A stretch of 44,703 nt of DNA from Alphaproteobacteria bacterium (GTDB lineage: Bacteria; Pseudomonadota; Alphaproteobacteria; UBA2136; UBA6156), in NCBI GenBank assembly GCA_027483385.1, contig JAIXUT010000155.1, positions 1-44,703 on the forward strand, read 5' to 3'. The notes below the pieces were generated by a model that was given only the letters and a program-made list of their open reading frames with translations, had not been told where the DNA came from and ran no database searches. This document shows, piece after piece, positions 32,369 to 34,311 of this stretch; the stretch's first letter is position 1, and every line of letters begins with the position of its first letter. The position numbers were made by a program, and so were the translations under genes.

Positions 32369-33439
32369 ATGGCCGCCAAGGAAAAAGTTACCCAACTCTC
32401 GTCAGCAACCAATGCCGAAAACACCGCCCGTGGCAAGGCACTGGAAGCCGCGCTGGCACAAATCGAAAAAAGCTTTGGCAAGGGCAGTATTCTTTCCCTT
32501 TCTGCCGATGCCGTGGAAAAAAATATCGATGTGGTCAGCACGGGTTCGCTCGGGCTGGATATTGCCCTGGGCGTGGGCGGCCTGCCAAAAGGGCGGATTA
32601 TTGAAATTTACGGCCCCGAAAGCAGCGGGAAAACCACACTTACCCTGCAAGTGGTGGCCGAGGCGCAGAAAATGGGCGGCACCTGCGCGTTCATCGATGC
32701 CGAACACGCGCTTGATACCGAATACGCCCGGAAAATTGGCGTAAATCTGGATGGTTTGCTGGTCAGCCAGCCCGATAACGGCGAACAGGCGCTGGAAATT
32801 TGTAACACGTTAGTAAGCAGCGGGGCTGTGGATGTGGTGGTGGTGGATAGCGTGGCCGCGCTCACCCCACGGGCAGAAATTGAAGGCGAAATGGGCGATA
32901 GCCACGTCGGCCTGCATGCCCGCCTGATGAGCCAGGCCCTGCGCAAACTGACGGGGACTATTTCCCGCAGCAACTGCATGGTGATATTTATTAACCAGAT
33001 TCGAATGAAGATCGGTGTGATGTTCGGCAACCCCGAAACCACCACCGGCGGCAATGCGCTGAAGTTCTATGCCAGTGTCCGCATGGATATCCGCCGCACT
33101 GGAGCGATTAAGAACGGCGAGGAAATTGTTGGCAACACCACGCGCGTGAAGGTGGTGAAAAACAAGGTTGCGCCACCGTTTCGGGAAGCTATTTTTGATA
33201 TTATGTATGGCGAGGGGATTTCCCACACCGGTGAAATTGTGGATTTAGGTGTGGCCCATGGCATTGTTGAAAAAGCTGGCGCATGGTTTAGCTACAATGG
33301 CGAGCGGATTGGCCAAGGGCGCGAAAATAGCAAGAACTTCCTGCGCGACAACCCAAGTGTAATGGCCCAAATCGAGGCCGCAATTCGGGCCAAGGGTACG
33401 CCGACAGTGGCCACAGTCAGTGCCGACGACGCGGCCTAA
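32369..33439 (+). CDS. recA: Recombinase RecA
   Basis: [109 protein letters not shown]. Confidence 0.99.
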
Positions 33440-33503: not shown

Positions 33504-33580
33504 GGAGGCGTAGCTCAGTTGGTTAGAGTATCGCCTTGTCACGGCGAGGGTCGCGGGTTCGAGTCCCGTCGCTTCCGCCA
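33504..33580 (+). tRNA. tRNA-Asp(GTC)
   Basis: GGAGGCG/CGCTTCC acceptor stem, TCGCC-TTGTCAC-GGCGA anticodon arm, GCGGG-TTCGAGT-CCCGT T arm, encoded CCA. Confidence 0.95.
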
Positions 33581-33688
33581 GTTTCACCGAAGGTGAACAA
33601 ACCTAATGGGGGTGCAGGGGGCATAGCCCACTGCAAATTTAGCGTACACCTGAATGCAGCCGGTTTGCGTAAGCAAACATGAGGCGTA
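33542..33688 (+). repeat. Copy A of imperfect tandem duplication (tRNA-Asp 3' half plus three-hairpin tail)
   Basis: cggcgagggtcgcgggttcgagtcccg...ccgcca, then hairpins TTCACC-GAA-GGTGAA (33583-33597), TGCAGGGGGC-ATA-GCCCACTGCA (33613-33635), GTTTGC-GTAA-GCAAAC (33663-33678). Confidence 0.85.
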
Positions 33689-33706
33689 AGCAAGTTTTTA
33701 CATGAA

Positions 33707-33798
33707 TTGAGTTGGTAAGAGTCTCGCCAAATTATAAGTTGTGCACCTGCGGTGCAACACGGCGCAGGTCGCGGGTTCGAGTCCCGACCCTTCCGCCA
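33707..33798 (+). pseudogene. Degenerate tRNA-Asp-like sequence with insertion in the anticodon loop
   Basis: gagttggtaagagtctcgcc[aaattataagttgtgcacctgcggtgcaacac]ggcgcaggtcgcgggttcgagtcccgacccttccgcca. T arm and CCA kept; 5' acceptor strand lost. Confidence 0.75.
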
Positions 33799-33905
33799 AT
33801 TTCACCGAAGGTGAACAAACCTAAGGGGGGTTGCAGGGGGCATAGCCCCTGTAAATGTAATAAATACCCCGAGCAGCCAGTTCGCGTCAGCGAACATAGG
33901 CATTA
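33760..33905 (+). repeat. Copy B of imperfect tandem duplication
   Basis: cggcgcaggtcgcgggttcgagtcccg...ccgcca, then TTCACC-GAA-GGTGAA (33801-33815), TTGCAGGGGGC-ATA-GCCCCTGTAA (33831-33854), GTTCGC-GTCA-GCGAAC (33880-33895). Confidence 0.85.
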
Positions 33906-34008: not shown

Positions 34009-34311
34009 ATGTCGGAAAAAACACTCACCCGCATGGATTTGGCCGAAGCGGTATATGCTGAAGTAGGCCTGACCCGTAAAGCTGCGCAACAATTGGTGGA
34101 TGATGTCTTCGAAGAACTCTCCAAAACCTTGGAAAAGGGCGAAACTGTTAAGCTTTCTACGTTTGGTAATTTTTCGGTGCGTAGCAAACGTCAACGGATG
34201 GGCCGTAACCCGAAAACGGGTGTTGAAGTGCCAATTACGCCGCGTCGTGTGCTCACGTTTCGGGCCAGCCATATTCTCAAAGATCGCGTAAACGGCAAAC
34301 AGCCCAAGTAA
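34009..34311 (+). CDS. ihfA: Integration host factor subunit alpha
   Basis: [72 protein letters not shown]; followed by a MerR gene as in other alphaproteobacteria. Confidence 0.97.

Follow-up and report, generated by a model that had tools for sequence, protein, structure and literature searches.

The locus behind tRNA-Asp

The window, a stretch of 44,703 nucleotides, corresponds to contig C139 in the metagenome-assembled genome G000 (1.94 Mb), which comes from a freshwater alphaproteobacterial genus. An intact tRNA-Asp gene lies between recA and an integration host factor-like (IhfA) gene, and the 428 bp of non-coding DNA separating the tRNA from the latter contain a tail of three hairpins, a damaged tRNA-Asp and a second tail (Table 1). 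The damaged tRNA-Asp has retained the segment from D-loop to CCA and carries a hairpin insert in its anticodon loop; inserts of the same type are present in damaged Leu, Val, Ile and Thr tRNA copies.

Table 1. Features of the tRNA-Asp locus in the window.
Feature	Position	Strand	Basis and remarks
recA	32369-33439	+	ORF list and identification by sequence; upstream neighbour and synteny anchor, same order in L046 and L047
tRNA-Asp (GTC), intact	33504-33580	+	ARAGORN and Rfam tRNA; CCA at 33578-33580
Tail copy 1 (right end approximate)	33581-33695	+	Sequence and fold
Tail copy 1, hairpin 1	33583-33597	+	Sequence and fold
Tail copy 1, hairpin 2	33613-33635	+	Sequence and fold
Tail copy 1, hairpin 3 including outer GCC/GGC	33659-33685	+	Sequence and fold
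Second tRNA-Asp copy, remnant from D-loop to anticodon-stem 5' strand (GAGTTGGTAAGAGTCTCGCC)	33709-33728	+	Alignment of one unit against the other
30-nt insert with hairpin GTTGTGCACC-TGC-GGTGCAAC, in place of most of the anticodon loop	33729-33758	+	Unit alignment
Second tRNA-Asp 3' part, from anticodon-stem 3' strand to CCA	33759-33798	+	Alignment; CCA at 33796-33798
Tail copy 2	33799-33905	+	Sequence, fold and covariance-model match
Tail copy 2, hairpin 1	33801-33815	+	
Tail copy 2, hairpin 2	about 33832-33854	+	
Tail copy 2, hairpin 3 including outer GCC/GGC	33876-33901	+	
Integration host factor-like (IhfA) gene	34009-34311	+	ORF list and relatives; downstream neighbour and synteny anchor

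A first-pass annotation of this DNA had described a tandem duplication of the tRNA 3' half and its downstream sequence (33542-33688 and 33760-33905). These boundaries are right, but the duplication extends past the tRNA 3' half, as the D-loop and the 5' strand of the anticodon stem were also copied (about 33709-33728). Positions 33540-33641 and 33758-33859 align over 102 nt without gaps at 81% identity. Sequence and folding confirm all three hairpins in both copies, and the reported change of a T:A to a C:G pair in hairpin 3 is seen between them. Folding energies compared with those of shuffled sequences gave z-scores of -2.1 (copy 1) and -4.8 (copy 2), and both covariance models built for the tail (R1 and R2) match positions 33582-33637 in copy 1. 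The tail matched no Rfam family, and no intrinsic terminators were found at the tRNA-Asp locus.

Hairpins 1 and 3 vary by compensatory substitution. Hand-cut sets of 13 (hairpin 1) and 12 sequences (hairpin 3) were compared with 500 shuffles each, and the covariation score of either hairpin was reached by 0/500 shuffles. Hairpin 1 takes the forms TTCACC/GGTGAA, TTTTCC/GGAAAA, TTTCCC/GGGAAA, CTAACC/GGTTAG and ATTTCC/GGAAAT, with 16 doubly changed cells, no one-sided changes and no G-U intermediates, while hairpin 3 is 100% paired with eight doubly changed cells; the sequences in each set are related to one another, and doubly changed cells are not equivalent to independent events. The earlier proposal of selection on structure is upheld insofar as the stems are kept and two of them show compensatory change, but the missing G-U intermediates in hairpin 1 are as compatible with a palindrome at the DNA level as with an RNA stem.

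A tail family dispersed among tRNA genes

The tail is present in 21 copies in three of the four genomes of the genus. A search of its own genome recovered eight copies, a covariance-model search of relatives added nine from G001 and four from G003, with none convincing elsewhere, and model R2 applied to all 18 genomes of the order returned the identical set. The search suggested in the first-pass annotation thus shows that the module is not a one-off. The outcome that would have reduced it to a recent segmental duplication, namely no further copies and unconserved stems in relatives, was looked for and is not what was found. Junctions with the host gene are precise, 18 of the 21 tails beginning 0-1 nt past the CCA of a tRNA, whether a gene or a damaged copy, and the family is dispersed over about a dozen tRNA genes (Asp, Ala, Leu-TAA, Leu-TAG, Ile, Val-TAC, Val-CAC, Thr, Lys, two Pro and Met). 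These further copies at many tRNA genes agree with one of the original suggestions, a mobile palindromic family, and the tRNA 3' fragments that follow the inserts agree with another, an att-type duplication. In several tails, the right end shows no recognisable piece of a tRNA.

Occupancy is species-specific, the tail-bearing tRNA partly differing among species, and tail-free orthologues were found for Lys and Met (G000), Pro-TGG (G001), Met (G003) and Asp (L046). Of the three tails away from tRNA genes, two lie at the ftsA 3' end, one each in G000 and G001, and the third at one spot in G000:C211. At the ftsA ends (L005/L177 in G000:C143; L166 in G001:C16), where the gene was identified by sequence, the TAA stop codon falls within hairpin 1. 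No match to the tail was found in phage, virus or plasmid sequences, the phage matches among those listed covering no more than the tRNA; the hairpin of the insert gave one viral match, which by inspection has no adjoining tRNA copy.

Two cases of copying between loci were found. In G003, the Pro-TGG tail matches the Pro-CGG tail at about 97% identity up to a common end point, behind tRNAs that are 79% identical with unrelated upstream flanks. In the Ile array of G001, one unit ends in CTGTGCCGCCCACCA, a sequence otherwise found only in Val-CAC among the 238 tRNAs collected. Judged from their sequences, both cases indicate transfer from one tRNA locus to another. Among relatives with the same recA-tRNA-Asp-ihfA order, L046 has no insert and L047 a different one.

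Copies of tRNA 3' ends downstream of tRNA genes

The tail family belongs to a wider pattern, surveyed in 130 tRNA genes from the four genus members and 108 from elsewhere in the order (two further genera and one further family). A copy was defined as the 3'-terminal 17 nt of a tRNA with at most two mismatches, no more than 400 nt downstream, and counting began from intact genes; an intact tRNA accordingly lies upstream in every counted case. In the genus, 34/130 tRNAs have such a copy (G000 10/40, G001 6/36, G002 10/24, G003 8/30), against none upstream, none in reverse complement and one at 400-1400 nt. Elsewhere in the order, 13/108 tRNAs were positive. The arrangement is directional, with no upstream and one reverse-complement copy for all 238 tRNAs, and a chance control with reversed sequences gave 0/238. 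Other alphaproteobacteria yielded two positive tRNAs among 48 (L059 and L111). The genomes are fragmented drafts, and the pattern was seen again in independent assemblies and in complete Escherichia coli genomes.

Breakpoints are centred on the tRNA loops. Copies start 15-23 (30 cases), 36-42 (18) or 53-55 nt (4) from the CCA end, clusters that correspond to the T-loop, anticodon loop and D-loop and hold 52 of the 56 copy starts, the remaining four being elsewhere. The arm loop at the copy start is usually swapped for a hairpin, and hairpins beside the breakpoint are commoner in inserts than in control DNA. One insert type, AGTTGTGCACC-NNN-GGTGCAAC, accompanies anticodon- and D-loop copies (Asp, Leu, Val, Ile and Thr), and another, AAGAACCGC..GCGGGAC, accompanies T-loop copies (Ala, Tyr and Gln). 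Different tRNAs also carry inserts unrelated to each other, and at Ala-TGC, which is occupied in all four genus members, the insert differs by species at the same tRNA.

Units can be arranged in tandem, near-identical ones being found at Phe, Tyr, Met, Ser and Thr, including four copies at Phe in G002, and the 5' flanks of T-loop copies are often the reverse complement of the tRNA 3' strand. Both features would follow if the inserts were a neutral by-product of unequal recombination, which would duplicate a tRNA locally and leave the second copy to decay while template switching at its palindromic arms grew hairpins; template switching would also perfect the stems and so mimic covariation. The failure to find an enzyme (no Y1 transposase, a reverse transcriptase in only two of seven genomes, and no dedicated enzyme among the typed recombinases; see below) also favours such an origin, which is nonetheless rather unlikely, as it leaves unexplained a single tail family with the same junction at about a dozen tRNA genes, the 97% identity of tails that follow Pro tRNAs sharing 79% identity, and the Val-CAC end in the Ile array.

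Three further arrangements were recorded in the same genomes. At L189 (G002:C87), tRNA-Ser-GCT is followed in tandem by two damaged tRNA-Ser copies, almost full-length and nearly identical to each other, and beyond these by tRNA-Phe and four repeats that finish with its 3' end. At L390 (G001:C154, about 1300-1600), the 3' end of a lipoamide-dehydrogenase-like protein gene (...GRALHS) is tandemly repeated, its copies separated by the same hairpin, TGATGTGCGCC-TTT-GGCGCAAC, a tRNA-type architecture at the end of a protein gene. A 76-nt tRNA called as Leu(TAA) at L003 (1676-1751), with orthologues in G001-G003, lacks the long variable arm usual in bacterial tRNA-Leu in all four genus members.

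The pattern resembles that of genomic islands at tRNA genes (Islander; tycheposons), which also leave an intact tRNA with a displaced, same-orientation 3' fragment downstream and use anticodon- and T-loop subsites. The three crossover subsites listed for islands (anticodon loop, T-loop and T/acceptor junction) accommodate 48/56 copy starts, with four in the D-loop and four elsewhere. Unlike islands, which are required to measure at least 2 kb and to encode an integrase, the inserts are about 35-240 bp long with no integrase or other gene, the gap before the tRNA copy (median 63 nt, range 9-382) leaving no room for an integrase gene, and they include a D-loop class and hairpins inside the breakpoint loop. 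It is very improbable, and already disfavoured, that they are decayed scars of islands once integrated by tyrosine integrases. An intact tRNA with a downstream same-orientation fragment is the island signature, and some integrase genes do lie near tRNA genes, as in G003:C121 and G000:C103. However, random internal deletion would give a broad range of sizes, not 34 fragments within 400 nt and one at 400-1400 nt, and insert families are common to different tRNAs. The island-type tyrosine recombinase genes on these two contigs, near tRNA-Thr-CGT and tRNA-Gln, suggest that ordinary tRNA islands are present in the same genomes.

Known counterparts and origin of the inserts

The repeats ending in tRNA-Tyr 3' sequence at E. 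coli tyrT have been on record since the 1970s and regarded as a curiosity. They share the layout of the present locus, so that the initial impression that no named element is arranged in this way was not quite right. The tandem tyrT units, annotated as RtT sRNA, each close with the terminal 19 nt of tRNA-Tyr up to and including CCA (AATCCTTCCCCCACCACCA); ahead of these stand GAAGG and a hairpin (AGCGC-GCA-GCGCT) that re-form the T-stem, giving a T-loop breakpoint with the hairpin inside the loop. In both systems, a unit downstream of the tRNA ends in the terminal tRNA nucleotides through CCA with a hairpin before them. Whereas RtT has been described at one tRNA, about a quarter of tRNA genes are involved here, with anticodon- and D-loop classes and families common to several tRNAs. 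The RtT model (RF00391) had no match at the window or at 11 other loci scanned, while E. coli units scored 121-134 bits; the alphaproteobacterial units and RtT therefore have a common anatomy with no demonstrable homology. RtT itself varies by strain (L364 and L365), being present behind tyrT in O157:H7 PV15-279 and absent by annotation behind the tandem tRNA-Tyr genes of SK1144.

This likeness bears on a second explanation, possible but on balance doubtful, in which the tail is a structured RNA kept for its function, co-transcribed with the tRNA, freed in 3' processing and acting as an sRNA or processing decoy, as proposed for RtT, with dispersal being secondary. Selection on RNA folding would explain the compensatory changes in hairpins 1 and 3, the anatomy is that of the annotated RtT units, and the units are always downstream in tRNA orientation. 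Less compatible with a conserved RNA are the erratic presence of units between species (and of RtT between E. coli strains), the lack of one-sided or G-U intermediates in hairpin 1, as expected of DNA palindromes, the absence of an Rfam match, and the unrelated inserts at different tRNAs.

Candidate enzymes were sought in the same genomes. Tyrosine recombinases number two to eight per genome (30 matches in all), and the seven of the 30 that were typed are all XerC/XerD-like, scoring 94-114 bits against an integron-integrase cut-off of 265; no integron integrase was found among these seven, and it was rejected as the driver on this basis. The Y1 (RAYT) transposase was found in 0/7 genomes by a search that was positive in 5/14 known genomes used as a control, leading to rejection of a RAYT/REP driver. 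A reverse transcriptase as shared driver was likewise rejected, being present in only two of seven genomes. The inserts are short, dispersed, palindromic and non-coding, as are REP/BIME elements with RAYT and the Rickettsia palindromic elements, but differ from these in their exact placement after CCA and in the lack of Y1 transposase.

The best explanation, advanced tentatively, is that two members of one family lie stacked at the locus, the family consisting of short, gene-less, hairpin-rich cassettes inserted at gene 3' ends, mainly those of tRNAs. Each cassette (about 35-240 bp) would start directly past the CCA and, when complete, close by repeating the 3' portion of the same tRNA from a point in the T-, anticodon or D-loop, where a hairpin marks the junction. 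The upstream host tRNA would remain intact, much as elements that target tRNAs restore the gene they enter; an unharmed upstream tRNA is expected whether insertion leaves the gene untouched or rebuilds it. Insertion would proceed by recombination at a tRNA arm or the acceptor end, catalysed in trans, and the transcript is predicted to read through from the tRNA and fold. Such cassettes are favoured because 18/21 tails start 0-1 nt past CCA at many tRNAs; because downstream 3' copies (34/130) have no upstream or reverse-complement equivalents in the genus; because copy starts cluster in tRNA loops next to hairpins; because the Pro tails of G003 and the Val-CAC end of one unit in the Ile array of G001 point to movement; and because recA-tRNA-Asp-ihfA loci of relatives are empty (L046) or differently filled (L047). 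Against them stand the lack of a dedicated enzyme among the typed recombinases, the absence of Y1 transposases from the seven genomes, the presence of reverse transcriptases in only two of the seven, the D-loop breakpoints outside the three listed integrase crossover subsites, the hairpin that breaks the loop where a classical integrase overlap must be identical, and the several tails lacking a tRNA fragment at the right end. RNA function and duplication with template-switched palindromes are serious rivals, and either could act together with insertion.

A more specific version of the cassette explanation, which is speculative and improbable as it stands, draws on integrons. Like integron cassette arrays, the inserts form gene-less tandem units with a palindromic boundary site whose structure is kept while its sequence varies; they differ in that no integron integrase occurs among the typed recombinases. 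In such a system, tRNA genes would serve as the primary attachment site and folded hairpin ends would recombine with tRNA arms; cassettes would stack behind tRNAs and move between loci via host XerC/D or an unseen recombinase, with RtT as a relic.

The open-access literature searched contained no paper on this pattern at tRNA 3' ends, which is weak evidence of novelty. The Islander survey used the same signature of a tRNA plus its 3' fragment and discarded candidates below 2 kb; island surveys with such a floor would have missed inserts of 35-240 bp, which would rank among the smallest site-specific inserts known. With RtT-type anatomy at up to 10/24 tRNA genes of one genome, three discrete loop breakpoints, shared families and evidence of movement, the origin of such units becomes testable.
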